Shown: positions 8,942 to 33,771 of the stretch, piece by piece | Position numbering within the stretch: the stretch's first letter is position 1 | Layout of the letters: each line of letters begins with the position of its first letter | Assembly: GCA_022825895.1 (NCBI GenBank) | Contig: JAJDVX010000039.1 | Span: 1-53,909 of the forward strand | DNA length: 53,909 nt | Direction of reading: 5' to 3' | Origin: Chloroflexota bacterium | GTDB lineage: Bacteria; Chloroflexota; UBA11872 | The notes under the pieces: generated by a model | The model's database searches: none | What the model saw: the letters and a program-made list of their open reading frames with translations, nothing else | What the model was told of the DNA's origin: nothing | Made by a program: the position numbers and the translations under genes

Positions 8942-9892
8942 TCAGATACGGCGCAGCCTTGGATTGACGACTTCGTCCAACGAACGCCCCAGTAAGTAGA
9001 ACGACGAACACAGCAACGTAATCGACAGGCTGGCCGGGAAGATCAGCCACCAGTACTCGCCCACTTGCAGCAGGTAGCCGGCCGACTCCGTCGTGTGGAT
9101 CATCAGCCCCCAGCTCATGCGCACGTCCAGCAGGCCCAGGAAGCTCAAGACGGCCTCCGAAAAGATCGCGCTGGTTACGGTGAACATCATGTAGAGGAAC
9201 GAGAGCGGGAGCAAGTTCGGCACCACGTGAACCAGGATGATGTGCAGCGTTCCGCCCCCCGAGGTCCTGGCCGCCTCGATATACGGCTTGACCACGACCG
9301 ACAACGCCTGCGACTTCAGCACCACGCCCGTCCCGCCGAACCCCGACAGGATCCCGATCAGCAGCGCCAGCTCCAGGTGCCCCACCTCCATCAGCGCGCT
9401 CAGCACGATCAGGATGCTGATCCCCGGCATCATGATCATGATGTCGGCCAGACGCATCAGCAGCATGTCGACCAGCCCGCCAAAGTACGCCGCCGTTGCC
9501 CCCACCATCGTTCCAATGCACACCGTCACCACCGCCGCCAGCAGCCCCAGCAGGAACTCGGACCGCGCGCTGAACATCAGCTGGCTCAGGATGTCCCGGC
9601 CCAGCGGATCCGTCCCCAGCGGGTGGCTCAGGCTGGGCGGCGCCGGCTGCTCGGTCTCGTCAAACGCAAAGCCGATCACCGGGTCGTAGATCCGTTCGTC
9701 CCACACCGTGTTCATCAGGATCGGATGCGCCAGCGCCAGCAGCATGTACAAGCAGATGATCACCAGCCCCAGGATCCCGATCCGCGTCTGAAGGAACAGC
9801 GACCAGTTCTGCTTCAGGCTGCGGCCCGCCAGCCCCAGCCGCACCCGCCACAGCGAGCGCGCATCGGCAACCGGCGCGGAGTCCACAACCAT
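8942..9892 (-). CDS. dppC: oligopeptide/dipeptide ABC transporter permease (DppC/OppC type)
   Basis: 316 residues from ATG 9892, whose A is also the last base of the preceding gene's TGA stop (TGATG), indicating translational coupling. The OppC-type N-terminal segment (FLQTRIGILGLVIICLYMLLALAHP) is followed by HPLGTDPLGRDILSQLMFSAR, a hallmark of this permease type. The BPD_transp_1 domain has about five further membrane spans and a coupling EAA-like loop at EAARTSGGGTLHIILVHVVPNLLP. It forms the channel with DppB. Confidence 0.93.
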   Translation of the reverse strand: MVVDSAPVADARSLWRVRLGLAGRSLKQNWSLFLQTRIGILGLVIICLYMLLALAHPILMNTVWDERIYDPVIGFAFDETEQPAPPSLSHPLGTDPLGRDILSQLMFSARSEFLLGLLAAVVTVCIGTMVGATAAYFGGLVDMLLMRLADIMIMMPGISILIVLSALMEVGHLELALLIGILSGFGGTGVVLKSQALSVVVKPYIEAARTSGGGTLHIILVHVVPNLLPLSFLYMMFTVTSAIFSEAVLSFLGLLDVRMSWGLMIHTTESAGYLLQVGEYWWLIFPASLSITLLCSSFYLLGRSLDEVVNPRLRRI

Positions 9893-11040
9893 CAGTACCG
9901 AACCCGCGGATCCAGGTAGGCGTACAGGATGTCCGCCGCCAGGTGCGCCAGCAGCACGAACAGCCCCACGAACACGAAAGTGCCCACCGCCAGCGGCAGG
10001 TCCTCGCTCACCGTGGCCGCCACCAGCGTCTGCCCCATGCCGGGCCACGAGAAGATCGACTCGATAATCACGCCGCCGTCAATGGCGAAGGCCAGGCTGA
10101 ACACAAAGCTCGTCACCACCGGCAGCAGTGCGTTGCGCGCCACGTGCCGGTCCCGCACCGCCTTCTCCGGCAACCCCTTGGCGCGCGCCGCCAGCACGTA
10201 GTCCTCCCTAATCACCTCCAGCATGCTATTGCGCGTCAGCAGCATGGTCCCGGCAAAGCTGATCAGCGTCAGCGTGGCGATCGGTAGCACCATGTGCTTC
10301 ACGATGTCCCAGGCCAGGTAGCCCACGCCCGACGACAGCCACACGCCCACCACGATCAGCACCGACACCGCAATGCTCCCGACCTGCAGGACCCGCGCCA
10401 TCCCAAGCCGCCGTTTGCTCGTGACGAGAAAGACGCCGAACACAATCACCGACAGGATCACGGCCGTCGCCAGCATCAGGTTGAAAATCGAGTTCGCGTC
10501 CGAGGGCGCGTCCTGCCACACCACCGGGTCCAGGAACTTCCCGATCGGGAACCAGCCGGCCTTAAACGCGAACAGCCAGATCATCATCAGGCCGAACCAG
10601 GGCGTGAACACCGTGTAGAGCGTCACCCCGCCCAGCGTGGAGGTGTACTCGACCCATCCGCCCCGCCGCCAGGCAATGATCTTGCCCAGCCCGAAGCCGA
10701 GATAGAACGACACCACCGTCGCCGTCAGGAACAGCACCAGCGTCCGCGGCAGCCGCTCCTTGATTACGTCCGCCACGGTCCTGGGATACAGGCTGAACGA
10801 GACCCCCAGGTCCCCCGTCAGCGTGTTCTTCAGGTGCACGAGGTACTGCTTCCACAGCGGCTCGTTGACCCCGAACAGCTCCTGCATCTGCGCCCGCGTC
10901 TCCGGCGGCAGGTTCGGATCCAGGGCGTACAGGCGGCTGATGTCGCCCGGCTGCGCGTTCACCAGGAAGAACACGATCGTGAGGAATACGAACAGCGTCA
11001 GCACGATCTGCAGAACGCGCTTGGCGATGTACGCAGCCAT
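9892..11040 (-). CDS. dppB: oligopeptide/dipeptide ABC transporter permease (DppB/OppB type)
   Basis: 382 residues. It starts MAAYIAKRVLQIVLTLFVF, the usual DppB first helix, followed by PGD....YALDPNLPPETRAQMQELFGV and the periplasmic segment. The EAA-type loop (EVIREDYVLAARAKGLPEKAVRDRHVARNALLP) that docks with the ATPases is intact, as is the end FVLLAHLAADILYAYLDPRVRY. It is longer than the usual 310-340 residues because of an extra membrane segment and basic loop around 185-235. First of the downstream genes after the binding-protein gene, separated from it by a strong hairpin. Confidence 0.92.
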   Translation of the reverse strand: MAAYIAKRVLQIVLTLFVFLTIVFFLVNAQPGDISRLYALDPNLPPETRAQMQELFGVNEPLWKQYLVHLKNTLTGDLGVSFSLYPRTVADVIKERLPRTLVLFLTATVVSFYLGFGLGKIIAWRRGGWVEYTSTLGGVTLYTVFTPWFGLMMIWLFAFKAGWFPIGKFLDPVVWQDAPSDANSIFNLMLATAVILSVIVFGVFLVTSKRRLGMARVLQVGSIAVSVLIVVGVWLSSGVGYLAWDIVKHMVLPIATLTLISFAGTMLLTRNSMLEVIREDYVLAARAKGLPEKAVRDRHVARNALLPVVTSFVFSLAFAIDGGVIIESIFSWPGMGQTLVAATVSEDLPLAVGTFVFVGLFVLLAHLAADILYAYLDPRVRY

Positions 11041-11070
11041 CCCTGTTACCTGTGAACTCCTGGTGCGTAC

Positions 11071-11105
11071 TCACCGCCGGGTCGTCGGTTCAGACCCGGC
11101 GGTGA
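11071..11105 (-). promoter_or_regulatory. intercistronic hairpin between binding protein and permease genes
   Basis: Perfect 13-bp inverted repeat (TCACCGCCGGGTC, 9-nt loop, GACCCGGCGGTGA) sits in the 79-base gap between the solute-binding gene stop and the dppB start. There is no T-tract. Such hairpins commonly protect the upstream transcript end and lower downstream expression, giving excess binding protein over permease. Confidence 0.6.
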
Positions 11106-11119
11106 AGCACGGCGTGGTC

Positions 11120-13225
11120 TTACTTGATCAGTACGACGTGTTGCAGACCCTGGGCCTGCGCCATTCCTCCCAGCACCGTGGTGAACGGGTATTCGACCTT
11201 GACAGGCCGGAAGACGTCGATCTTCGGCGTCGTGAACAGCGTCACGTAGGGCAGGTCGTCCGCCAGCAGCGCCTGCATCTGGTGCGCCTTCTCGCGCGCG
11301 CCCTCGATCGTCGTCTCCGACAGCAAGCCAAAGGCCAGGTCATCGAACTCGGGGTTCGCGTAGCCGCCCCAGTTCACGCCGCCGTCCTCGTTCTCGGGCG
11401 CGTGGCGGCTGTGGAAGATGTTCTCCAGGTAGTTGGGGAAGATCGAGAACCCCCAGCCCAGGATCCACATGTCCAGGTCCGTGTCCACCGTCTCGCTGAA
11501 CAGCTTCTCCACGATCAGGTTGAACCCGAGCAGCCGCGCCTTGGTGGGGATGCCCAGGTCGTTCATCCAGCGTTCGATCCAGATGGCGAAGGTCGACCGC
11601 AGCGGGTCGTAGCCGGCGCTGGGCGCGATCAACTCGAGCTCGGGCACTTCGCTGCCGTCGGGCATGCGCAGGCCCTCCCCGCCGTTGACCACAAACGCCC
11701 CGTCCTCGCTGACCTCCGGTTCCTTCTCGTACGTGAAGCCGGCGCCTTTCAGGAGTTCAACGGCCGCCGCGATCCGTTCGCCCCGGCCCAGGCCCTGGCC
11801 GATCTTGGCCGTCGCGTTGTTGTACCAGAACGCGTTCCCCTCCGGGACCATCGCGTACATGGGGATCGCCGTGTCCTGCAGGATGGTCCGGGTCACGAAC
11901 TCCTTGTCGATCACCGTGGCCACGGCCTGCCGGAACGCCTTGTTGTCCATCGGCGGCTTGCGCGTGTTGAACCCCAGGTAGAACACCCCGTTGTCCAGGT
12001 TCTCCACGACCTGCAGGTCCGACGTCTGCCGCACCCGGTCCAGGAATCCCTTCTCAAGACCCAGCGGGTTGAACAGGAAGTCGATATCGCCCTTCGTCAG
12101 GGCCAGGATCGCCGAGTCCTGGTTGCCGTAGATGCTGAAGATCTCCGACTCGAAGTGCGGTCCGACCTCAAGCTCCAGCACCTTGTCGCCGGTCGGCTCC
12201 CCGTAGTAGATCTCGGTGTAGCCCGTCCGCTCGTTCGTTGCCTCGTACGCGCCGTTGGCGTACTCGTTGACCACGGTGCCCATGTCGAAGTAGTCCGGCA
12301 CGGTCGTGTTTTCGAAGAATGCGCCCGGTTCCCACTGGCTGTATTCCAGGCCCCCGGCGGTGGGCTCGCCGTCCGGCACGTGCGCGAAGAGGGCTTCGAT
12401 CTGCTGCGGGACGTCGCCGGCCGTCCTGGCCTCCGCGACCACCGGCGCCCAGTAGTGCTCCGGCAGGATCGGCATGAACGCCAGCCCGAACTGCCAGATG
12501 CTCAATCCCGGTGTCTGGGCATTGCCGTCGGCGTCGGTCGACTTGAAGTAGATCTTCAGCCGGTGGTCGTCCAGCGCTTCCGCCCGCTCCACGAACGCCG
12601 GATGCACCAGCGACGCCCAGTTGGAACCGAGATTAAGTTCCCGCACCGTGCTGACCGTGAACACGAAGTCGTCGGCCGTCAGCGGCTCGCCGTCGCTCCA
12701 CTCCACGCCCTGCTTGATCGAGACTTCGGTCGTCCAGAACTCGGTTCCGTCAACCGTCTCCTTGGCCAGCGGCGTGGGCAGCCCGTCGGCCACCGCCGGC
12801 ACCCAGTCGAACCGCTGCGGCGAATAGCCGTACAGCGAGGTGTTGTAGCCGCCGATCACGTACCCGGTCCACACCGACCCGGCTGGCCCGCCCAGGTAGT
12901 TCCAGATGTTTCGCGAGATCGGATCCTCGAACAGCCCCATCTTGTAAATGGCTGGCCCGGCCGGAGCCGCGGGAGTTGCGGCGGGCGCTTCCGTCGCCGC
13001 CGGTGTCACTTCTACGACCCGCTCGACTTCGACGATCTTCTCGACTTCGACCGGCACGGTCACCACGCGCTCGACCTCGACGACCTTTTCGACTTCAACG
13101 GGAACGGTGACGATCCGCTCCGTCGGCGCCGGCGCCTCGCCCCCGCAATCCATCGCCGCCATGGCCATCGCAAAACCGACAACCAGGATCACCGTGTGCT
13201 TTCTTAGGGTTTTGACCACGACCAC
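11120..13225 (-). CDS. dppA: peptide-type ABC transporter solute-binding lipoprotein (SBP family 5)
   Basis: 701 residues at most. N-terminal signal with lipobox MAAMDC, then a low-complexity linker made of repeats of the VTVPVEVEKVVEVERVV type (about 35-75) and an Ala/Pro stretch, typical of Chloroflexota binding proteins. The SBP_bac_5 fold follows (IKQGVEWSDGEPLTADDFVFTV, NGVFYLGFNTRKPPMDNKAFRQAVATVID). GTG 13225 is possible, but GGAG in the leader is better spaced for GTG 13219, giving 699 residues. It captures peptides or related solutes outside the membrane for DppBCDF. It heads the operon and lies next to the nudC pseudogene region. Confidence 0.92.
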   Translation of the reverse strand: MVVVKTLRKHTVILVVGFAMAMAAMDCGGEAPAPTERIVTVPVEVEKVVEVERVVTVPVEVEKIVEVERVVEVTPAATEAPAATPAAPAGPAIYKMGLFEDPISRNIWNYLGGPAGSVWTGYVIGGYNTSLYGYSPQRFDWVPAVADGLPTPLAKETVDGTEFWTTEVSIKQGVEWSDGEPLTADDFVFTVSTVRELNLGSNWASLVHPAFVERAEALDDHRLKIYFKSTDADGNAQTPGLSIWQFGLAFMPILPEHYWAPVVAEARTAGDVPQQIEALFAHVPDGEPTAGGLEYSQWEPGAFFENTTVPDYFDMGTVVNEYANGAYEATNERTGYTEIYYGEPTGDKVLELEVGPHFESEIFSIYGNQDSAILALTKGDIDFLFNPLGLEKGFLDRVRQTSDLQVVENLDNGVFYLGFNTRKPPMDNKAFRQAVATVIDKEFVTRTILQDTAIPMYAMVPEGNAFWYNNATAKIGQGLGRGERIAAAVELLKGAGFTYEKEPEVSEDGAFVVNGGEGLRMPDGSEVPELELIAPSAGYDPLRSTFAIWIERWMNDLGIPTKARLLGFNLIVEKLFSETVDTDLDMWILGWGFSIFPNYLENIFHSRHAPENEDGGVNWGGYANPEFDDLAFGLLSETTIEGAREKAHQMQALLADDLPYVTLFTTPKIDVFRPVKVEYPFTTVLGGMAQAQGLQHVVLIK

Positions 13226-14734: not shown

Positions 14735-15490
14735 TTATCGATCTCGTCTATCCCATTCAGCAACCATGATGCAATTGGCATACGGATACGGGGATCCGTA
14801 CCGACAATCCATGCCTTCTTCCTTGCTTACCTCGCGCCAGGAGCGTTGCGGAAACCTCTTGTACCATGCCGTGCGGGTGCTACCCAATAGATCGGCTGCA
14901 ATCATCTCGTCGAGTATAGGGTTATAGCCAATCGGAACTGTGATGACAAAGGTACCGCCGGGGGCCAGCAGCTCGAGGCACCTGTCTATCGCGGCACGAA
15001 TCTTCCGTTCTACGTCCTCTGGAATCACCGCATTCTCGTCGGTCTCATCGAAAGAAACGTGCTCGATTGTCGAAATCGACAGAACCAGATCGTATTGCCG
15101 GCCCGGCTCAAAGTCGACAATGTCAATCTGAATTGATTCCGGCTCGTATTTGTCGACAACTGTGTGTCTATAGCCAAAATAATGAGATAGAACATTTCCC
15201 ACCTCAAGTACATCTTCGGGACGTACACTCTTCAGAAACCACCTCGCTATGGCCAGTTCAACACAGCGTTCGTTCACCCAGGTAGTGTTGTATGATGCAT
15301 AAATCAGGGGTATTTTGTCGCCACGAAACTCAACGGTTCGTTCTCGCAATAGTGGAATCACAACCGGTGCCATGAGTATGAACAACGGCTTCACGAGTAG
15401 CTGGACAAGCCCATAACGTCGGATAAACCAGCTAACGCCGCCGGCGTTTCTCGCCCAACCGGAAACGAAAGTCCTGGCGACGTCCTTCAC
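14735..15490 (-). CDS. class I SAM-dependent methyltransferase-like protein
   Basis: 251 residues from GTG 15490. The N-terminus has a hydrophobic, possibly membrane-associated segment (LVQLLVKPLFILMAPVVIPLL). A Rossmann-like methyltransferase core follows: DVLEVGNVLSHYF (motif I variant), IDIVDFEPGRQYDLVLSISTIEHV (acidic loop and motif IV region) and LELLAPGGTFVITVPIGYNP (motif V). Substrate unknown; proteins of this look often modify surface glycans or nucleotide sugars. It is AT-richer than its neighbours and stands alone between the nudC remnants and a repeat-filled gap, suggesting transfer. Confidence 0.65.
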   Translation of the reverse strand: MKDVARTFVSGWARNAGGVSWFIRRYGLVQLLVKPLFILMAPVVIPLLRERTVEFRGDKIPLIYASYNTTWVNERCVELAIARWFLKSVRPEDVLEVGNVLSHYFGYRHTVVDKYEPESIQIDIVDFEPGRQYDLVLSISTIEHVSFDETDENAVIPEDVERKIRAAIDRCLELLAPGGTFVITVPIGYNPILDEMIAADLLGSTRTAWYKRFPQRSWREVSKEEGMDCRYGSPYPYANCIMVAEWDRRDR

Positions 15491-16110
15491 GACTGTTCCG
15501 TGCTAAAACTCGAAATTATGTTGATTACGAATGCGAGTCCCAAGGACGTTGGCAATTGGTGAGCGGCTCGTGGCATTGAATTATCGCTTCGCCGGGCAAT
15601 CCAGTGAATGGACGATCGGCTTTGTTCTCAGCACCAAGCCCCGCTGACGCTCGTAAGCCTGCGAAGTCTACGAGGGCGCAGCCCGCAAGGCTCGGGACGC
15701 GTCGCGGCTCGGTCCCGCGGAAGTGAGGCTCGAGGGAGGGGCGCTCCATTGTGGAGGCCTTTGCAAATCGCCATGCTTCGGGGCTCGTCCTCGTGCCTCG
15801 CCTGGGCGGAGGGTGTGCGGTGGAATTCCCTTCGAGGAGACGCAGTTCTTTGACCACTCCTGCGACCTTTGCAAAACGCCGCTCGACCTCGAGAGAGGGA
15901 CCGCTCTTGCTCCCTCTCCCCGTGGGAGAGGGTTGGGGTGAGGGTCTTCCGCGCAACCACCCCCGGGTTACGCAAATGTCTCACCGTGGGGCTAGCGGTT
16001 GGGGCACGCGAACATGACGTGCTGGACGGACTGAGGCGTGCCGGCACATTCCTGGAGGTCAGCTTCGCGTTGGTACGTCCAAGCGTTACCTCCACGCAAG
16101 CGCCGATCTC
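15491..16110. other. repeat-bearing intergenic region
   Basis: No gene is supported. It contains a family B repeat (15912-15980) and a GGTGTGCGGT..AAT.CC..TCGAGGAG segment near 15810-15845 that recurs near 17476-17505. Two related pieces beginning CCTTTGCAAA (about 15759 and 15868) also occur. It separates the methyltransferase from the intact nudC. Confidence 0.6.
15912..15980. repeat. dispersed intergenic repeat, family B, with hairpin
   Basis: Starts with a 9-bp perfect hairpin CCCTCTCCC-CGT-GGGAGAGGG (15912-15932), then TTGGGGTGAGGGTCTTCC and a CCCCGGGTTACGCAAA tail. This is the best-preserved copy in the window and shows the stem that is degenerate in the copy at 105-157. Confidence 0.8.
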
Positions 16111-21053: not shown

Positions 21054-22220
21054 ATGCCTCTCCCCCCACGCATGAAATTCGGAATCTTCCTGGCCCCCTT
21101 CCACTGGCTCGGCGAAAACCCCACCCTCGGCCTCGAGCGCGACCTCGAAACCGTCCAGTGGCTCGACGATCTCGGCTTCGACGAAGCCTGGATCGGCGAA
21201 CACCACAGCGCCGGCTGGGAAACCATTGCGTCCCCCGAACTCTTCATCGCCACCGCTGCCGAGCGCACCCGCCACATCAAGCTCGGCACCGGCGTCATCA
21301 GCCTCCCGTACCACCACCCCCTCATGGTCGCCAACCGCATGATCCAGCTCGACCACATCACCCGCGGTCGCGTCATGCTTGGTGTGGGCCCCGGCGCCCT
21401 GGTGTCAGACGCCTACATGCTCGGCATCGAACCCCTCACCCAGCGCCCCCGCATGGACGAGGCCCTCGGCGTCATCATGCGCCTCCTCACCGAAACCGAG
21501 CCCATCACCCACCACGCCGAGTGGTTCACCCTCCAGCGCGCCATGACCCACCTGCGCCCCTACACCCAGCCCCACTTTCCTATTGCCGTCGCCGCCGCCC
21601 AGTCCCCCTCCGGCATGCAACTCGCCGGCAAGCACGGCGCCGCCGTTCTGTCCCTCGGCATCCGTCCCGGCAGTGCCGAAACCGTCAAGCTCGACTCCTT
21701 CTGGCAGATCGCCCTCGATGTCGCCAAAGAGCACGGCAAAACCATGAACCGCCACGACTGGCGCCTCGTCATGCCCGTCCACATCGCCGAATCCCGCACC
21801 GAAGCCATCGAACAGGCCCGCGTCGGCGCCGCCCGTTTCCAGCGCGACTACTTCGAAGACACCATGGGCTTCGAAAAGACCTTCGACGGCCCGCCCGAAC
21901 AACTCATCGACTACATGGTCGACACCGGCGCCTGGTGCGTCGGCACACCGGATGATCTGATCGCCGCCATCCATCGGCTGGATGAGTCAAGCGGCGGCTT
22001 CGGCGGCCTCCTCGTCATGGCAACCGAGTGGGGCAACCGCCAGCAAGTCCGCCACAGCTACGAGCTGATTGCCCGCTACGTCATGCCCCAATTCCAGAAC
22101 TCCCTCACCAACCTCACCGCTTCTCAGGAATGGGCCGCCCGCGAACGCCACAACCTCATGGCCCTCCGCACCAAGTCCCTCGACAAAGCCACCAAGGACT
22201 ACCAACAAAAACCTTCGTAG
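21054..22220 (+). CDS. luciferase-like (LLM class) flavin-dependent monooxygenase
   Basis: 388 residues from ATG 21054 (GAGGAG upstream); a longer frame is open but is not supported. Bacterial-luciferase TIM barrel: MKFGIFLAPFHWLGENPTLGLERDLETVQWLDDLGFDEAWIGEHH, LGTGVISLPYHHPLMVANRMIQLDHITRGRVMLGVGPGAL and a long C-terminal tail to residue 388. It should use reduced FMN or F420 and oxygen on an unknown organic substrate. The TAG stop codon lies within the first copy of a hairpin repeat, so the original C-terminus may have been altered by repeat insertion. A decayed copy of its 3' end lies at 23067. Confidence 0.92.
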   Translation: MPLPPRMKFGIFLAPFHWLGENPTLGLERDLETVQWLDDLGFDEAWIGEHHSAGWETIASPELFIATAAERTRHIKLGTGVISLPYHHPLMVANRMIQLDHITRGRVMLGVGPGALVSDAYMLGIEPLTQRPRMDEALGVIMRLLTETEPITHHAEWFTLQRAMTHLRPYTQPHFPIAVAAAQSPSGMQLAGKHGAAVLSLGIRPGSAETVKLDSFWQIALDVAKEHGKTMNRHDWRLVMPVHIAESRTEAIEQARVGAARFQRDYFEDTMGFEKTFDGPPEQLIDYMVDTGAWCVGTPDDLIAAIHRLDESSGGFGGLLVMATEWGNRQQVRHSYELIARYVMPQFQNSLTNLTASQEWAARERHNLMALRTKSLDKATKDYQQKPS

Positions 22221-23066: not shown

Positions 23067-23198
23067 GAGCAGGTCCGCCACAGATACGAGCTGATCGCTT
23101 ACTTCGTCATGCCCCGATTCCAGAGCTCCCGCACAGACCTCACCGCCTCTCAGAACTAGGCTGCCCCCCAAACGCCACAATCCCATGGCCCTCTCAGC
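23067..23198 (+). pseudogene. 3' fragment of a luciferase-like monooxygenase gene
   Basis: Encodes QVRHRYELIAYFVMPRFQSS, then RTDLTASQN and a TAG stop, corresponding to QVRHSYELIARYVMPQFQNS...NLTASQE near the end of the intact gene at 21054-22220. DNA similarity continues past the stop to about 23198. It is in the same orientation as and downstream of the intact gene, with repeats and an orphan antitoxin between. Confidence 0.85.
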
Positions 23199-23327: not shown

Positions 23328-24644
23328 ATGGATTCCGAGTCGGCCTTGCTGTCAGGATTTGAACCGTACGTGGCCTCCGTCGAGGACTTGGCCACTGCTG
23401 CTTTGCGTTCTTCGTCCATTTCGAGGTCGGAGCAAATCGACTTCGATCTCCTCGATGGTCAGGCGGCTGTCAGATTGCGCGACACTACCGCTCTGGATAC
23501 CCGACGATCGAGGGGAGCCTTCTTTAGTAGCACAAGGCTCCGATCTTTCGCGCTTGCTGAGGAACCATCGAGTGGCGGGTCGTGCATTGCAACTCTCGAT
23601 CCGGCAGTTGGAGCTGGTGACCTCCTGATCGAAGTGGCGCGGCGGATGCCCGTCAGCCATGACCTGGTGCAAACGCTTCAGCAGTGGGGCTTGCTTCTCC
23701 ACGGTCGAGACTTGGAGCCAGAGTTCGTCAGACTTACCAAGGCGCGGTTGGTGATGTTGGCGGTTTCGCGTGGGGCAACAGAGAACGGCGACGTATCCAC
23801 TGACCTCGGTCAGTTCTTTCCCCAGATTCGAGTTGGTGATGGCCTCGAACTGCTTGACAGCGGCTGGGTTGGCGGACACGTAGTTATGAATCCACCGTTC
23901 ACGTACCACCTCGCTGACGAAGGAACCTCCTGGACCAGTGGTCGAACGAATCTAGCTGCGACCTTCTTGGCTGCGTTTTGCCAGAATGCTCGTCCGGGAA
24001 CGAAGCTGACGGCTATCCTTCCCGACGTCATACGTACAGGATCCAGGTACGCGCGACTTCGATCGCTGGCCTGTGAACAAATCCACATCAGCTCAGTCGA
24101 GCCATTCGGCCGGTTCGATGATTGGGCTGACGTCGACGTCTTCGTGCTGCGGGGGATGGCTCGGGCACCGCAGCCCAACACTTCAGAGGTGAAGTGGTGG
24201 CCTGGCCGACCTGGGCGAACACTGGGCGACAGATTTGACGTGCATGTTGGTCCTGTTGTTCCACACAGAGACATCGAATACGGACCTAAGCACCCGTACT
24301 TGGACGCCCGATCCGTTCCCCTCGGGGGAGAATTTGACTCCTCAGATGCCGACCTCGGAGGGTTCCAGAGACGGTTGTTTAGGCCACCGTTCGTGCTCGT
24401 GCGCCGGACATCGCGCCCAGGTGACAAGTCGCGGGGTGTCGGGACCGTGGTTGTTGGATCGCAAGACGTACTCGTCGAGAATCACCTGATTGTCCTCAAA
24501 CCCAAAGATGGTCTAATCCACACTTGCCGACGCGCCGCCGAACTGCTCGGATCTAGATATGCAAAAGCTTGGCTTGATGAGCGGATTCGATGCAGACATC
24601 TGACTGTACGTGCACTCCGGGAATTGCGTTGGTTCGATTCATGA
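23328..24644 (+). CDS. DNA N6-adenine methyltransferase of a four-gene putative defence operon
   Basis: 438 residues. The pattern RRSRGAFFSSTRL (59-71) resembles the entry motif of type I/II-like gamma-class methyltransferases. Motif I is DPAVGAGD (91-98, SAM binding) and motif IV is NPPF (188-191, catalytic), with TKLTAILPDVI behind. The C-terminal 200 residues may hold target recognition (KSRGVGTVVVGSQDVLVENHLIVLKP resembles TaqI-like specificity regions). Predicted to methylate adenine in a specific DNA site. There is no helicase or classical nuclease domain. The stop overlaps the next start (ATGA), so it is coupled to the GHKL/kinase gene. Codon use is more AT-rich than the flanking genes. 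Confidence 0.88.
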   Translation: MDSESALLSGFEPYVASVEDLATAALRSSSISRSEQIDFDLLDGQAAVRLRDTTALDTRRSRGAFFSSTRLRSFALAEEPSSGGSCIATLDPAVGAGDLLIEVARRMPVSHDLVQTLQQWGLLLHGRDLEPEFVRLTKARLVMLAVSRGATENGDVSTDLGQFFPQIRVGDGLELLDSGWVGGHVVMNPPFTYHLADEGTSWTSGRTNLAATFLAAFCQNARPGTKLTAILPDVIRTGSRYARLRSLACEQIHISSVEPFGRFDDWADVDVFVLRGMARAPQPNTSEVKWWPGRPGRTLGDRFDVHVGPVVPHRDIEYGPKHPYLDARSVPLGGEFDSSDADLGGFQRRLFRPPFVLVRRTSRPGDKSRGVGTVVVGSQDVLVENHLIVLKPKDGLIHTCRRAAELLGSRYAKAWLDERIRCRHLTVRALRELRWFDS

Positions 24645-26692
24645 GTACCGCAACATTCCGATTCTCAACAGACATCCTGAGAAGACTCGGTGAGGAGCTC
24701 ATCACGAGTTTCGATCAGGGCATCGTCGAGTTGGTTAAGAATTCATACGATGCTGATGCAATCCAGTGTGTTGTAGAGCTAGTTGATACAGAGAGGCTAG
24801 GTGGGACTGTCATCATTTCTGACGACGGTGATGGCATGACGATTGATGATATTCGTGATGGCTGGTTACTCTTGGGTCGGTCACGCAAGAACCCGCGGAA
24901 GCGGACCAGGCTGAATCGACTTCCGGCGGGTAGCAAGGGACTGGGGCGCCTTGGAGCAATCAGGCTTGGGAATGAGGTCGTGCTTTCAACTCGACCTCGG
25001 AGTCATCCAGGAGTAGAACACACAATTCACATCAGATGGAGTGACTTTGATCGACGCCAAGTCGTTGAAGATGTGGAACTGCCAATCCAAACAACTCGCT
25101 CTGACCACCGATCAGGAACTAGGATAGAGATCCGCTTTTTGCGCCGCACGGTGAGTATACGCGAGGTGCAACGCCTTGCACGCGAATTGCTACTGCTTGC
25201 TGATCCGTTTGGCGATCCATCAGGCTTCCGACCGAGGTTAGTTGCGCGAGAATTTGAGGCTCTTCAAAACCTAGTCAGCAGAGGGTACTTCGATGATTGC
25301 GAGTGGCGCCTACTTGCCGACCTTGATCAAGAGGGACGTGCGTCGGCCAGGGTCTTCGATCGATCGGGTCGCGTTCGCTGGATAGCCGACAGTCACGGCT
25401 TGGACAGAGTGTACAGTGCACCTCAGGCTACCTTCGAGCTCTGGGCATTCTTACTGCAGGGAGATTCCTTTGCCGGGCGTACGGCTACAGTCGGCGAAGT
25501 GCGTCAATGGCTTCGACACGTGGGCGGCATCCACCTTTATCACCGTGGCCTTCGTGTACGACCGTATGGGGATGTGGGACACGACTGGTTGGATATGAAT
25601 CTAGCTCGGGCACGAGATCCCGAGCTGCGTCCCTCAACCAATACATCAATTGGTCGAGTAACAGTACTGGACGAAGCAGAGGAGCTATTGCAGAAGACTG
25701 ACCGTACAGGCTTTGTAGAGAATGAAGCGTTTCGAGAGCTTAGGAGATTCGCTGTCAATTCGCTTGAGTGGATGCATGTACAGCGACTTGCCGAGAGAGA
25801 GAAACGCAAGGACAAGAATAAGGAGGCAACAAAGAACCGCAGTGCGAAGGCCGCTGCTGATTTGAGGCGTGCAATTGGCAAACTGCCGTCGACACATGCA
25901 GCGACGATCAACAAGGCAATACGTGAAGTCTCACTTGCAAATAGGGCGACGCGACTACAGATGGAAGACGAGATTAGTCTTTATCGTACCTTAGCTAGTG
26001 TCGGCACTTCAGTGTCTGTATTCGCTCATGAGATAGACGGACCAGCAACGAACGTAGTCCTCTCGGCTAACGCCATTGAAAGGCGCGGAAGAACATTCCT
26101 GAGCGGACGTTATGAGAAAGCAATTGGACGGCAAGTTCAGGCAGCCGTAAGAGCAGCCACGTTGCTCTCTAAGTTCTCCAAATTGCCGTTGGGAATGCTC
26201 AAGCGCAGTAAGCGACGACGTGCGATACTAAACGTCAATCACACTGTGCGAGATACACTCGAGCTATTCGAGCCATACTTGACCGATGCTCATGTGGCAT
26301 TAACTTGCGATTTGTGTGACGAGGATGTACATATTCTCGCTTCGATCTCAGCCGTGGAATCCATTCTGTCGAATCTCATTATCAACTCAGTTAAAGCAAT
26401 TAAGCGACAGGATGGAAGGCCTGGGCAGCGCAAACTTACAGTTCGAACGCAAGTCGTGGGCGATACAGTTCTAGTTATTGTTCTCGATAATGGCCCGGGT
26501 ATTCCCAATCGAATGGCCTCTCAAATTTGGCTACCGGGCATTACAAGTGACGAGAATGGGACGGGACTAGGTCTCACCATTGTTCGAGACACTGTCATTC
26601 AACTGGGCGGTCGAGTGGAGTCTAATCCCAGTGGCGAACTTGGCGGTGCGGAATTCACTATTGAATTGCCTCGAGCTGCGGGTACCCCGTGA
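24641..26692 (+). CDS. MORC-like GHKL-S5 ATPase fused to a histidine kinase
   Basis: 683 residues from ATG 24641. N-terminal GHKL ATPase: N box IVELVKNSYDADA (E30, N34), DDGDGM 61-66, GSKGLGRLG 97-105. An S5-like domain follows with GGIHLYHRGLRVRPYGD (295-311), as in prokaryotic MORC-type proteins. Then come a charged linker and coiled coil (about 380-445), a kinase H box FAHEIDGP with candidate phosphoacceptor His463, and a second GHKL domain: N box LIINSVKA (579-586), DNGPGIP 616-622, GTGLGL 640-645. Both ATP sites look intact. There is no membrane segment, so it is cytosolic. Likely role: an ATP-driven DNA or complex sensor that phosphorylates the receiver protein encoded next (4-nt overlap). 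This arrangement fits restriction-like conflict systems. Confidence 0.9.
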   Translation: MSTATFRFSTDILRRLGEELITSFDQGIVELVKNSYDADAIQCVVELVDTERLGGTVIISDDGDGMTIDDIRDGWLLLGRSRKNPRKRTRLNRLPAGSKGLGRLGAIRLGNEVVLSTRPRSHPGVEHTIHIRWSDFDRRQVVEDVELPIQTTRSDHRSGTRIEIRFLRRTVSIREVQRLARELLLLADPFGDPSGFRPRLVAREFEALQNLVSRGYFDDCEWRLLADLDQEGRASARVFDRSGRVRWIADSHGLDRVYSAPQATFELWAFLLQGDSFAGRTATVGEVRQWLRHVGGIHLYHRGLRVRPYGDVGHDWLDMNLARARDPELRPSTNTSIGRVTVLDEAEELLQKTDRTGFVENEAFRELRRFAVNSLEWMHVQRLAEREKRKDKNKEATKNRSAKAAADLRRAIGKLPSTHAATINKAIREVSLANRATRLQMEDEISLYRTLASVGTSVSVFAHEIDGPATNVVLSANAIERRGRTFLSGRYEKAIGRQVQAAVRAATLLSKFSKLPLGMLKRSKRRRAILNVNHTVRDTLELFEPYLTDAHVALTCDLCDEDVHILASISAVESILSNLIINSVKAIKRQDGRPGQRKLTVRTQVVGDTVLVIVLDNGPGIPNRMASQIWLPGITSDENGTGLGLTIVRDTVIQLGGRVESNPSGELGGAEFTIELPRAAGTP

Positions 26693-27402
26693 TCCACGAG
26701 AGTGCTCTTGTCGCCGTTGTTGACGATGTGCGGGACAGCGCGGAGATGACGGCCGATATTGCAGAGGAGGCAGGGTTTGAACCGGCTGTAATTACAGAGG
26801 CGGACGAAACTTTCCAATATAGCGAAGAGCTGGTGAACCGTATCCGATCAATGCAATGCGCGGCAGTGATCTGTGATCATCGCCTGTCCCAAAAGCCATT
26901 TGCATCGTTCACTGGTGCCGAACTGGTGTCTCGGTTGTATCGTGCCACCGTTCCCGGGCTATTAGTGTCGACCTTCACTTCGATTGATGGTGATAGCTCG
27001 ATTCGACGCTTCAGAGCAGACATTCCATCGCTCATTCCTCGCGAGCAGCTTGATCCGGAACACATATGGGATGGTCTAACGAAGTGCTCTAATGAACTGG
27101 CTGGCACCATGACACCGGAACGTCATGCGCGTCGAACGCTCGTGCGAGTTGTTGACGTTACGTCCTATGGGGGCGACTTGTTTGTAGATGCAATAATCCA
27201 TACATGGAGCCCCGTTCAAGCAGTTCGCTTTCCAATCGATATAGTTGACAACGCGTCGGTCCGCCAGGCTTTGGAGGATGGGATGATAGAGAACAACAGA
27301 TTGTTTGCGGCTGTGAATGTTGGTTGCAAGGCGGATATCGATCTGTTCTTTAGAGAGTTCGAGTTTGCTCCGGAGGCTGATATTGAATCGCTCAGGCAGT
27401 AG
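26689..27402 (+). CDS. receiver-domain (response-regulator-like) protein with novel C-terminus
   Basis: 237 residues from GTG 26689, overlapping the kinase stop as GTGA. Receiver features: acidic pair D12/D13 (AVVDDVRD), phosphoacceptor candidate D63 in AAVICDHRLS, and Ser/Thr near 94-95 (LLVSTFTSID). The conserved lysine of typical receivers is not evident (SLIPREQL has Arg118). Residues 140-237 are a separate domain (RRTLVRVVDVTSYGGDLFVDAIIHTWSPVQAVRFPIDIV) that I do not recognise; it is not a DNA-binding output domain. Probable phospho-controlled adaptor between the kinase and the MBL enzyme. Confidence 0.8.
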   Translation: MIHESALVAVVDDVRDSAEMTADIAEEAGFEPAVITEADETFQYSEELVNRIRSMQCAAVICDHRLSQKPFASFTGAELVSRLYRATVPGLLVSTFTSIDGDSSIRRFRADIPSLIPREQLDPEHIWDGLTKCSNELAGTMTPERHARRTLVRVVDVTSYGGDLFVDAIIHTWSPVQAVRFPIDIVDNASVRQALEDGMIENNRLFAAVNVGCKADIDLFFREFEFAPEADIESLRQ

Positions 27403-28375
27403 TGTCTGGATCATTGACGTTGGTCATGGAAATGCTACGGTTGTCCAAGACGGTTGCCGAACAGCTGTAATCGACGGTGGTCGTGATGACACTCTGCTCC
27501 GCTTCCTAGACGAACACAGCATAACTCGGATCGATACGGTTATTGTGTCTCATGTTGATGCTGACCATTTCGGCGGTGTATCGCTTGTACTTTCGGACAC
27601 CGTATTTGAAGTTGGTAAGGTATTCGTGAATCCAGATGCACGTAACTCAGACCTGTGGCTTGATTTTTTGGCCGTGATGTGCGATGCAAGTCAACGCGGT
27701 ACAAAGTTCTTTCTGGAATTGACACGCATCAATCCTGGGAAGATCTTCGTCGGGTCGACACTCTTGGAGGTACTTGGTCCATCACAGGGACTTGCTTATA
27801 GAACTCCGCAAGCGCGCGGCGGCGATGGCCGTCAGGTTTCTCCAAATGCCATGTCTGGCGTGGTACGTGTTTCGGACGGGGATTCGATGAGAGTCCTTCT
27901 AGCGGGAGACATTGATCAAGTTGGCTTAGACTCGCTATTGGCTGACTCCAGCGATTTGGCCGCAGAGGTACTCGTGTTTCCTCACCACGGAGGGCGTCCG
28001 GGAAGTGCTCCAGCATGCGAGTTTGCAAGAACATTGACTAGTGAAGTCAAACCAAGGTTGGTTGTTTTCTCCGTATCGCGTGGGCGCTCACAGTTCCCAA
28101 GACCGGAGATTGTGGCGTCGGTGCTCAATAGCTCGGAAGACGTTCATGTCGCGTGTACCCAGCTTTCGCGACTATGCGCGGCTGATGTGCCGGACGATAA
28201 AAGTAATCTTCACACCGGAATAGCAAAGGGTACGAGTGAAAACTCGTGTTGCGCGGGGACCGTTTCTATTTTCCTAAATGAGGCCAGTGCTTTTTCGCCT
28301 TCACTCAGCGCGCATGACGAGTTCATTGACAGACATGCACCGTCAGCTCTTTGTAGGCATAGTCGGGGGACTTAA
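27383..28375 (+). CDS. ComEC/Rec2-like metallo-beta-lactamase-fold hydrolase
   Basis: 330 residues when started at TTG 27383, six bases after GGAGG inside the previous gene; overlap with that gene is 20 bases. MBL fold: VWIIDVGHGNATVV, then SHVDADHFGG with the HxDxDH form of motif 2 (His57, Asp59, Asp61, His62) typical of ComEC-type enzymes, LLAGDID (bridging Asp) and FPHHGG. ComEC C-terminal MBL domains are thought to degrade DNA strands, so this is the likely nuclease effector of the operon; a small-molecule hydrolase is the alternative. There is no ComEC membrane domain. The 3' end overlaps the convergent HigA gene by 33 bases. Confidence 0.85.
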   Translation: MNRSGSSVWIIDVGHGNATVVQDGCRTAVIDGGRDDTLLRFLDEHSITRIDTVIVSHVDADHFGGVSLVLSDTVFEVGKVFVNPDARNSDLWLDFLAVMCDASQRGTKFFLELTRINPGKIFVGSTLLEVLGPSQGLAYRTPQARGGDGRQVSPNAMSGVVRVSDGDSMRVLLAGDIDQVGLDSLLADSSDLAAEVLVFPHHGGRPGSAPACEFARTLTSEVKPRLVVFSVSRGRSQFPRPEIVASVLNSSEDVHVACTQLSRLCAADVPDDKSNLHTGIAKGTSENSCCAGTVSIFLNEASAFSPSLSAHDEFIDRHAPSALCRHSRGT

Positions 28376-28702
28376 ATTAGTAGGGGCGACAGTTGTTGAG
28401 AGGATTGTTTCTTGAGCTTCTTGCTCAATCTTTGTGATATTCAGTTGACTCATGCGACCCATCATCACCCAAAGGCCACAAGCCGTCTGCATCCCCAACC
28501 ACGTCTCCTGAGACGACCCAAACGCCTTCGACAACCGAATCGCCATCTCCACCGACTCCGCCGACTCCTCATTCACCAGTTCCGACAGCGCCTGCCGGCT
28601 CACCCCCAACCCTTCCGCGGCCTTGGTCACGGAAAGCCCAAGCGCCTCCAGGCACCCACGCCTCACCATCCCACCCCGATGCCGCGCCCCAACCATCCCC
28701 AT
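28343..28702 (-). CDS. HigA-family XRE antitoxin, orphan, extended C-terminus
   Basis: 119 residues. The core CLEALGLSVTKAAEGLGVSRQALSELVNEESAESVEMAIRLSKAFGSSQETWLGMQTACGLW is the HigA/VapI helix-turn-helix. The tail after about residue 95 (EQEAQETILSTTVAPTNLSPPTMPTKS) is not typical and overlaps the 3' end of the MBL gene. HigB normally lies directly upstream, but that space holds no toxin gene. It may be an orphan antitoxin that represses itself, or a regulator recruited by the defence operon or the Fic gene. Confidence 0.75.
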   Translation of the reverse strand: MGMVGARHRGGMVRRGCLEALGLSVTKAAEGLGVSRQALSELVNEESAESVEMAIRLSKAFGSSQETWLGMQTACGLWVMMGRMSQLNITKIEQEAQETILSTTVAPTNLSPPTMPTKS

Positions 28703-31263: not shown

Positions 31264-32105
31264 CTAGGTGTACTGACCACAGAGGTGTGAGACACGGTTG
31301 ACCGGTGGCTGACCGTTGAGGGAGCCGTGGGGACGGCGCCGGTTATACCACCGCAGCCAGCCGCCGAGGGCCCGCGTGCGATGGGCGCTGGAGGGGTAGG
31401 CGAAGGCGTACGCCCACCGCTGCAGCAGGATCTGGATGAAGCGTTCCGCCTTGCCATTGGTGCGGGGCGTGAAGGGGCGGGTGCGCAGGTGGCGCAGGTC
31501 GTGGGCGGCGCAGCGCTGCTGCCAGGCGTGCGAGCGATAGGCGGAGCCGTTATCCGTCATCACGGCCTGCACCGCGATGCCCCGGGTGCGAAACCACGCC
31601 AGCGCGTGGTCCAGGAAGGCCAGGGCGTCGGCCTGACGGTCGGTCGGCCGCACCGCGGCGTAGGCGAGCCGGGAATGGTCGTCGATGGCGACGTGCACAT
31701 GCTGCCAGCCGGCGCGTGGGCTGCGTCGCACGCCATCCTGCAGGATGCGCTTGCCGACATGCCAGAAGCGGCCCAGCTTCTTGGTATCCAGGTGCAGCAG
31801 CTCGCCCGGCTGGGCGCGCTCATAGCGCACGACCGGGGGCCGCGGGGGGCGCGGGCGGCGGGAATGGCCCAGCCGCCGCAGCCCCTTGCCCACGGTCGAG
31901 GCGGGGCGGCCCAGCAGGGCGCCCAGCCAGCGGCCGTGTAGCGCTGCCACCAGCGATAGCCCGTGGCCCGGCTCGCGCCGACGGCCTGAGCGGCGGCGCC
32001 CGGACTTGCCCCCGCCACCATCGCGGCGACGGCCCGACACCGCGTCTCGAACGAATAGCGCATGCGCTGGGGCCGCCCGGTAGCATCAGCCATCGGGACC
32101 TCCAT
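31264..32105 (-). pseudogene. IS481-like DDE transposase, frameshifted
   Basis: The N-terminal HTH (MRYSFETRCRAVAAMVAGAS.., GASRATGYRWWQRY) is in one frame from about 32063. The catalytic part is in another: GELLHLDTKKLGRFW (first Asp), VMTDNGSAYRS (second Asp), FTPRTNGKAERFIQ (Glu), ending WLRWYNRRRPHGSLNGQPP. Between them the usual stretch between the HTH and RPASTVGKGLRRLG is missing, so a deletion with frameshift near 31920-31950 joins HTH to the linker out of frame. Inactive unless rescued by frameshifting. Confidence 0.8.
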
Positions 32106-33048: not shown

Positions 33049-33771
33049 CCCCGTATTGTAACCCGATACGTATCACGTATCACCCCACCCCCAACTCACC
33101 CAAACACCAGCCGATCTCCGCCCGCCCTCCACCTCGACGCCCCATGAATCCGCCCCTGAACCCCGCCACGCACCGCACCCTCAGGCCTCCCCGCCGCTCC
33201 ATTCCCCACTCCACTCTTCACTCACCCCTCACTGCTCTCAGTTCACTCCTTCCCCTACCCTTTGCCATCTGTACTCGAATAGAGTATCATGGACCCCATG
33301 AACACACAACCCCAATTCCCAAATCCCGGCCCTCAGGCGCCAACCGAGCGCCCCCTGCCACCTGCCCAGACCAAGACTCTTCAACCTCCCCTCCGCCTCT
33401 TCTCTCACCGCTCACTACTCTCGGCTCACTCCTTTCCCACCCCGTCATCCCGGCGTCCGCGGCCGGGACCCAGCAGCACCCAACCCCCAGCCCTACCGTC
33501 GTACCTCGTCTGACCCAGCCCCCGAGTTCATCGACCCTTCCGAGTTCGCGTCATGTCCACCCCCGGTCCTCATCGCCTGGCCCCTCCCCCAGCTCCACAG
33601 ATTCCCCGAATCACCAAAAAAACCGCCTCAAGCTCTCTCTGGCCAGCCGGCCCCCTCTGGGGGCCGGCTGGCCAGAGAGAGCTCCCCCCTTCTCCCCCCG
33701 CCACCCAGCTCCGCCCCGCCCGACCGTTACACTCACACCTCGAACTCCGAAGGCTCGCGAAGGATGTGCTG
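33049..33771. other. repeat-bearing intergenic region, possible truncated small gene
   Basis: Holds a family D repeat (33446-33481) and the large hairpin at 33631-33683. TACTC-GAATA-GAGTA (33272-33286) is an inverted repeat directly before ATG 33289/33298, which opens MNTQPQFPNPGPQAPTERPL and then runs into repeat sequence. This may be the start of a broken gene, but support is weak. Confidence 0.5.
33631..33683. repeat. 25-bp perfect inverted repeat with 3-nt loop
   Basis: Left arm 33631-33655 (begins AGCTCTCTCTGGCCAGCC), loop TCT, right arm 33659-33683 exactly complementary. On the minus strand a T-run follows about 10 bases after the stem, too distant for a standard terminator. It lies 88 bases before the aldehyde dehydrogenase start. 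Confidence 0.9.

Follow-up and report, generated by a model that had tools for sequence, protein, structure and literature searches.

Do a DNA methyltransferase, a histidine kinase, a receiver protein and a metallo-beta-lactamase-fold hydrolase that are encoded back to back form a single anti-phage system, and if they do, what licenses the cutting? This question is raised by four intact overlapping open reading frames at positions 23328-28375 on the plus strand of a stretch of 53,909 nucleotides from a Chloroflexota bacterium (contig JAJDVX010000039.1), which was analysed as a whole and is further called the window. The genes are abbreviated here as MT, HK, RR and MBL (Table 1) and are together referred to as the cassette. 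An earlier note, made from the letters of the window, had proposed that they constitute a defence operon, and this proposal was followed up computationally.

Four overlapping genes and their predicted domains

The gene overlaps described in the earlier note, of 4 nt (ATGA), 4 nt (GTGA) and 20 nt, are indeed present. The last one results from the TTG at 27383 as the start of MBL, which agrees with the alignment; an upstream ATG at 27317 is a possible start as well. The block was also said to be AT-richer than its flanks, and its GC content is 51-56% over positions 24001-28000 versus mostly 59-72% elsewhere in the window, where two more 1-kb bins (1001-2000 and 15001-16000) are equally low. Its supposed toxin-antitoxin setting holds only at the level of domains, by which the RHH, HTH and Fic genes on its flanks are toxin-antitoxin-like. 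On the minus strand at 31264-32040, an open reading frame resembles an integrase-type transposase, as judged by eye. The nearest relatives of the window cassette are found in Chloroflexota. A scan of species genomes yielded 48 loci, of which L003-L047 form the cassette family and L048-L050 are unrelated kinases. HK is present in 44 of L003-L047 plus the window, with L047 holding remnants only, and the active-site residues of all four proteins are almost invariant in the aligned rows.

Table 1. Coordinates of the cassette genes and of the features that delimit the cassette in the window
Feature	Position	Strand	Description
MT	23328..24644	+	438 aa; predicted N6-adenine DNA methyltransferase
HK	24641..26692	+	683 aa, ATG at 24641; MORC-type GHKL-transducer ATPase and histidine kinase
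RR	26689..27402	+	237 aa, GTG start; stand-alone receiver with C-terminal beta-rich domain
MBL	27383..28375	+	330 aa, TTG start; ComEC-type metallo-beta-lactamase-fold predicted nuclease
Exchanged segment	23196..28467		window versus G001, between conserved left and right flanks; from 23062 versus G010
3' luciferase-like copy	23068..23193	+	83% identical to the gene's 3' end (22045-22220)

HK was expected to combine two complete GHKL sites and an H box in one 683-residue protein, which proved correct. The first site comprises E30, N34, D61xG63xG65 and G97-G102, the second N578, N582, D616xG618xG620 and G640TGLG, and the H box contains H463. The architecture consists of a MORC/TopoVI-like GHKL-transducer ATPase (residues ~7-386) followed by a histidine kinase (~455-680). 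Both HATPase_c_3 (1.9e-17) and HATPase_c (1.1e-19) are annotated by Pfam, each of them occurs in 44/44 HKs, and H463 is kept in all 44 aligned rows. The identification as a MORC-type ATPase with a histidine kinase is borne out by the PDB list for the HK N-terminus, which is topped by MORC3/MORC2 and MutL, and HK displays the GHKL plus transducer/S5 fold with a complete ATP site that characterizes MORC-type proteins. The N-terminus also matches the BbrUII/HgiDII restriction-enzyme model at 3.9e-20, under the cut-off of that model. Assignment to AVAST type 1 as Avs1a (NF041809) was rejected at 15.9 bits compared to the curated 420 bits.

The receiver-like D63 of RR stands as well, together with an acidic pair, D12 D13. 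D13 and D63 are conserved in 58/58 rows and D12 in 56/58, while the presumed receiver lysine is not: its column (position 118, chosen as the equivalent) contains R in 44 and K in 3 of the 58 rows. Profile matches of this receiver are weak. The window RR scanned alone reaches Response_reg at 0.037, under the cut-off, 23/58 RRs match this family weakly (best 0.0031), and the RR family profile reaches receivers at 0.003. The predicted fold is nonetheless a receiver (mean pLDDT 94), and receivers head the fold-match list. The C-terminal beta-rich domain (~145-237) is conserved; it gave no fold match of its own in the whole-RR search, the list of which is filled by receivers. A DNA-binding domain common to the 58 RRs was not found in Pfam, where single stray matches are the only ones. 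The family carries the invariant histidine in an H box and the acidic pair plus aspartate in a receiver that are expected of a two-component pair.

The HxDxDH signature of MBL was confirmed as H57xD59xD61H62 and is accompanied by D176 and H201 H202 GG; HxDxDH, D176 and H201 H202 are present in 38/38 rows. The protein continues into a C-terminal extension with four cysteines (C258, C265, C290 and C324), which occur in 37-38 of the 38 rows. These near-invariant cysteines make residues 258-324 (window 28154-28354) a possible metal-binding or RR-docking module. MBL matches Lactamase_B in Pfam (2.6e-7), and among solved structures its profile scores best against ComEC, with teichoic acid phosphorylcholine esterase also matched. 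It does not belong to 6A-MBL (NCBIfam NF058524; 16.1 bits compared to the curated 220 bits). The reading of MBL as a nuclease-like effector gains support at the sequence level from two sides: its closest solved relatives are ComEC and, in distant cousins, an HNH endonuclease appears in its place (see below).

As to MT, motifs I (DPAVGAGDLL) and IV (NPPF) were found as claimed. The residues D91, G95, G97 and N188 P189 P190 are kept in 27/27 alignment rows, and all 27 display the motif I and NPP[FY] of N6-adenine DNA methyltransferases. The family profile matches M.BseCI at 4.7e-11 and also EcoKI M in the PDB; MT alone stays under the Pfam cut-off (N6_Mtase, 0.18).

Conservation across phyla and the variable methyltransferase

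Whether the gene order recurs across phyla was a check proposed at the outset. It does, in sets of three or four genes from nine phyla, and because of this recurrence the arrangement is not due to chance. RR directly follows HK in all 42 loci that are uncut by a contig end, and MBL directly follows RR in all 41 loci with room for it. Pairwise distances across 39 loci (L023 and L043 dropped) correlate at 0.91 for HK-RR, 0.93 for HK-MBL and 0.88 for RR-MBL, and at 0.79, 0.79 and 0.74, respectively, for the 30 loci that remain without the nine cyanobacterial ones. For MT, the correlations with the other three proteins are only slightly lower (0.60-0.74; 25 loci, L020 dropped). No permutation out of 2000 came up to any of these values, part of which is accounted for by shared ancestry. 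The HK tree (40 rows) requires 11 changes for the 9 phyla, with a minimum of 8, and is mostly ordered by phylum with few mixed clades, which suggests transfer of the cassette between phyla.

Of 7998 candidates scored in a database search with HK, 2926 are relatives at 1e-10 (general kinases included), and a search with RR returned 55. At 1e-60, 5/301 genomes of the window's phylum match (three of the close family and two distant cousins), compared to 8/194 in the phylum of the cyanobacterium G041 (six close and two distant). Two distant MORC-HKs from the window's phylum (L139, 4821-8867, and L140, 4762-8297) are followed by open reading frames of 607 and 449 aa, respectively, with no assigned family. 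The wider neighbourhood was surveyed with 146 genes. Of 161 genes first picked, at most two per side and none shorter than 150 aa, 18 were removed (nine on account of their length, four that belong to the fragment loci L041/L044, one piece of an MT gene and four spurious open reading frames in the window), and three window genes were added. A constant fifth gene can be rejected, as no Pfam family exceeds 4/146 neighbours among the best 25 of 135 families (Phage_integrase, 4). A PADLOC scan of the same genes gave at most 2/146 per family among the best 25 of 136, which speaks neither for nor against enrichment in defence islands.

MT is the variable member of the cassette. It adjoins the other genes in 31 of the 43 loci with upstream room (L010 and L023 lack such room and fall outside this count), 30 times as the same family and once, in L020, as an Eco57I-type methyltransferase that the MT profile scores at only 1.3e-10. 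In five of these 31 loci (L016, L018, L020, L021 and L027), it is found on the opposite strand. The 12 loci without MT are nine cyanobacterial ones and L024, L033 and L035. The upstream genes scanned there are mutually unrelated and comprise a solute-binding protein, EF-G, proline dehydrogenase, an integrase, a TPR protein, guanylate kinase and a helicase. Nor was a close MT copy detected elsewhere by profile search in the 13 (draft) genomes without a visible MT: six have no match, and the best match in the other seven is 5.2e-11, the level of general N6-methylases, compared to 3e-71 to 4e-172 in seven genomes that served as positives. On the HK tree, the presence of MT costs 3 changes. That MT is needed to mark self DNA can therefore not be upheld as a general rule and, because versions without MT exist, methylation is not the sole discriminator between self and non-self. 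The methylation part of the first reading is weakened by these results; its defence part is strengthened (see below). These natural MT-less versions make the role of methylation directly testable.

Chromosomal hotspot, plasmids and viral contigs

To the left of the cassette lies a luciferase-like gene (ending at 22220) that has some match in 12 of the 13 genomes from this genus (counting the window's own) and is 92-96% identical over nearly its whole length in eight other same-genus genomes. The site next to this gene was compared in seven same-genus relatives (G001, G004, G005, G006, G010, G011 and G012). In G001, the match to the window breaks off after 23195 and resumes at 28468, with a single gene of 1409 aa, Avs2 (1464 bits), in between. 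In G010, it breaks off after 23061 and likewise resumes at 28468; the insert there contains a UvrD-like helicase as well as a BsuBI/PstI-type endonuclease and a methylase. IetA (483 bits), IetS (961 bits) and a helicase are found at the hotspot in G004, with a different right-hand boundary. The site is empty in G006 and G012, where the luciferase-like gene is joined to window position 33720 within ~100 bp; G005 has ~0.6 kb and G011 a further insert. The duplicated 3' end of the luciferase-like gene (Table 1), which has a similar counterpart to the left of Avs2 in G001, is probably a scar of the hotspot. The reading of the cassette as a defence locus is thereby corroborated: in three of seven relatives, the site is occupied by Avs2, a restriction-modification pair or IetAS, and these known anti-phage systems in the place of the cassette are the strongest support for its defence role. 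No second hotspot emerged around the cassette that G006 itself carries, since none of the other 12 genomes of the genus has a long match to its flanks.

The cassette also occurs on mobile elements. Three of 72,556 plasmid records contain HK. The Hymenobacter and Burkholderia plasmids each carry all four genes, and a Pseudanabaena plasmid (L138) carries HK, RR and an MBL gene split by an IS982 transposase gene (9818-11771). Just upstream on the Hymenobacter plasmid (L136, 1-5261) are ThiF-family and patatin-like phospholipase genes and two additional MBL-profile matches, all of them possible further defence genes. Viral contigs contribute 21 loci, 6 close and 15 with distant MORC-HKs. Five of the six close ones carry all four genes; the sixth (L118) has RR, MBL and an HK that is spread over two frames, and no visible MT. 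A search of 50,697 phage records gave no RR match.

In six of the distant viral-contig loci (L121, L122, L125, L129, L132 and L134), the MORC-HK, with 22-25% identity to HK, is followed by a receiver-like gene and then by an HNH endonuclease. The latter matches PF01844 in L121 (2.5e-6) and L129 (6.1e-6), and all six form one homologous family linked by phmmer at 1.6e-36 or below. The receiver-like genes of L125, L129, L132 and L134 match the RR profile (6.4e-9 to 2.7e-6), that of L122 matches Response_reg (1.2e-5), and that of L121 is assigned by alignment and hhalign only; an aspartate occupies the D63 column in all six. An N6-methyltransferase is visible in five of these loci, and the L125 contig ends directly after the HNH gene. 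Among these cousins, five HKs and three RRs were scanned with PF19191 and PF19192, without a match. Apparently, they represent a sister system of the cassette. The presence of HNH in the place of MBL within a methylase-kinase-receiver set points to MBL as the cutting effector. Since these cousins are distant and the L121 receiver assignment is alignment-based, an exchange of effectors is something that we infer. The other nine distant viral-contig loci have different partners or partners of no assigned family. Further MORC-HK cousins in L123 (5968-10002), L135 (5965-10157), L128 (5935-10244), L130 (5935-10259), L127 and L131 are followed by genes of ~260-600 aa, which are possible other effectors; the ones scanned, in L123, L128 and L135, have no Pfam match. 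An Eco57I-type methyltransferase lies upstream in L123 and L135.

Related systems, proposed mechanism and alternatives

A published definition of exactly this gene set was not found in the open-licence literature. Detocs, reportedly described by Rousset et al. in 2023, is said to be a two-component abortive system in which a kinase, a receiver and an effector serve defence. It reportedly differs from the cassette in its effector and in having neither a MORC module nor a methyltransferase. The name Detocs also occurs in a table of PMC10952713. No Detocs-named model is listed for the four cassette proteins, and PADLOC-DB 2.0.0 may hold none.

The closest published kin of the cassette are the HEF_HK/Response_reg_2 pairs, with which it has a common plan but different Pfam domains. 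In the main text of Bellieny-Rabelo et al. 2021 (PMC8011034), most of these pairs are described with an N-terminal HATPase_c_3, with C5-methylases upstream and with nucleases (HNH_2, Vsr) nearby, and the authors speculated on signalling that controls restriction-modification. Like the cassette, they place a soluble histidine kinase beside a receiver gene with a methyltransferase upstream, and tie the kinase pair to restriction-modification (PMC8011034). Membership of the cassette in these families was rejected (PF19191 in 0/44 HKs and PF19192 in 0/58 RRs, at an E-value of 0.1). Further differences from the text of PMC8011034 are the methylase, which is of the N6 type in the cassette and mainly C5 in the pairs, and the receiver lysine, which is reported as conserved there and is mostly arginine in cassette RRs. 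The cassette has a dedicated MBL gene, whereas the terms lactamase and MBL are absent from the main text of that paper.

Other systems resemble single parts. The MORC/paraMORC GHKL ATPases share with the cassette a GHKL-S5 module linked with DNA methylases, as laid out in the main text of Iyer et al. 2008 (PMC2292703). Compared to those restriction-modification neighbourhoods, the cassette differs in that its module is fused to a histidine kinase and has a receiver and MBL as partners; that main text nowhere uses the terms receiver, two-component, lactamase or ComEC. The beta-lactamase-like domain of ComEC, a metal-dependent nuclease according to the text of Stedman et al. 2025 (PMC12455585), has an H-x-D-x-D-H site like that of MBL. 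Unlike ComEC as described there, MBL is free-standing, has no channel or OB domain and carries the four-Cys C-terminal extension. In the report on the GHKL-Shedu protein VcSduA (PMC12137116), a clamp-like GHKL ATPase is likewise hypothesised to control a defence nuclease, but it is a single protein with a PD-(D/E)xK nuclease and no phosphorelay. A figure legend of DefensePredictor (PMC13092281) names HATPase and REC among the domains of predicted systems, which may or may not include the cassette.

We consider it likely, with a probability of roughly 0.6, that the cassette acts against phages in a restriction-like manner, with a phosphorelay that licenses cutting. In the steps that we infer, HK would detect foreign DNA: its MORC module would clamp the DNA and go through an ATP cycle that drives autophosphorylation of H463, after which the phosphate would move to D63 of RR. 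The C-terminal domain of phosphorylated RR would contact and activate MBL, which would cut DNA with two metal ions, like the ComEC domain. N6-adenine methylation by MT, where present, would hide self DNA, and versions without MT would have to tell self from foreign by other cues, such as DNA ends or topology. There is about an even chance that the cassette thereby defines a new restriction class, in which the phosphorelay rather than site recognition by the nuclease licenses cutting, a MORC-type DNA clamp is the input of HK and the effector (MBL or HNH) is interchangeable. If true, a restriction enzyme would have two-component signalling as its post-translational safety catch.

One alternative is abortive defence: the MORC-kinase senses infection, phosphorylated RR turns on MBL against a target other than invader DNA (host RNA, a nucleotide or host DNA), and the cell stops or dies, with MT as an optional regulator or guard. 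The dispensability of MT, the reported precedent of Detocs and the many phosphoesters on which MBL-fold proteins act (the profile also matches the phosphorylcholine esterase) would suit such a course. We regard it as unlikely, since the best-scoring solved relatives of MBL are ComEC, distant cousins have a nuclease of the HNH type in its place and a methyltransferase is linked in 31/43 loci. This linkage to a predicted nuclease gene could also point to a conventional restriction-modification or addiction unit with a constitutive MBL, in which HK and RR only tune expression or modification state, much as restriction-modification genes lie beside related two-component pairs in the text of PMC8011034. 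A constitutive MBL would, however, make the MT-less versions self-toxic, and the RRs, headed by receivers in their fold list, have no common DNA-binding domain in Pfam, so that this reading is quite improbable. Slightly less probable still is a signalling cassette without a defence role, for instance in DNA uptake or repair, that uses a ComEC-like domain. It draws on the likeness of MBL to ComEC and of HK to MORC and MutL, but is at odds with the sparse occurrence (3/301 and 6/194 genomes in the two phyla), with the presence on plasmids and viral contigs, and with the occupation of this site by known defence systems in three same-genus relatives.

If the phosphorelay-licensed reading is true, a phosphorelay would gate a restriction-type nuclease, and a bacterial MORC-type ATPase would obtain a defined job as an infection sensor, which would bear on what eukaryotic MORC proteins inherited. 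Free-standing ComEC-type MBL proteins would likewise gain an activation route that can be tested, in a cassette that is compact, intact and widespread.
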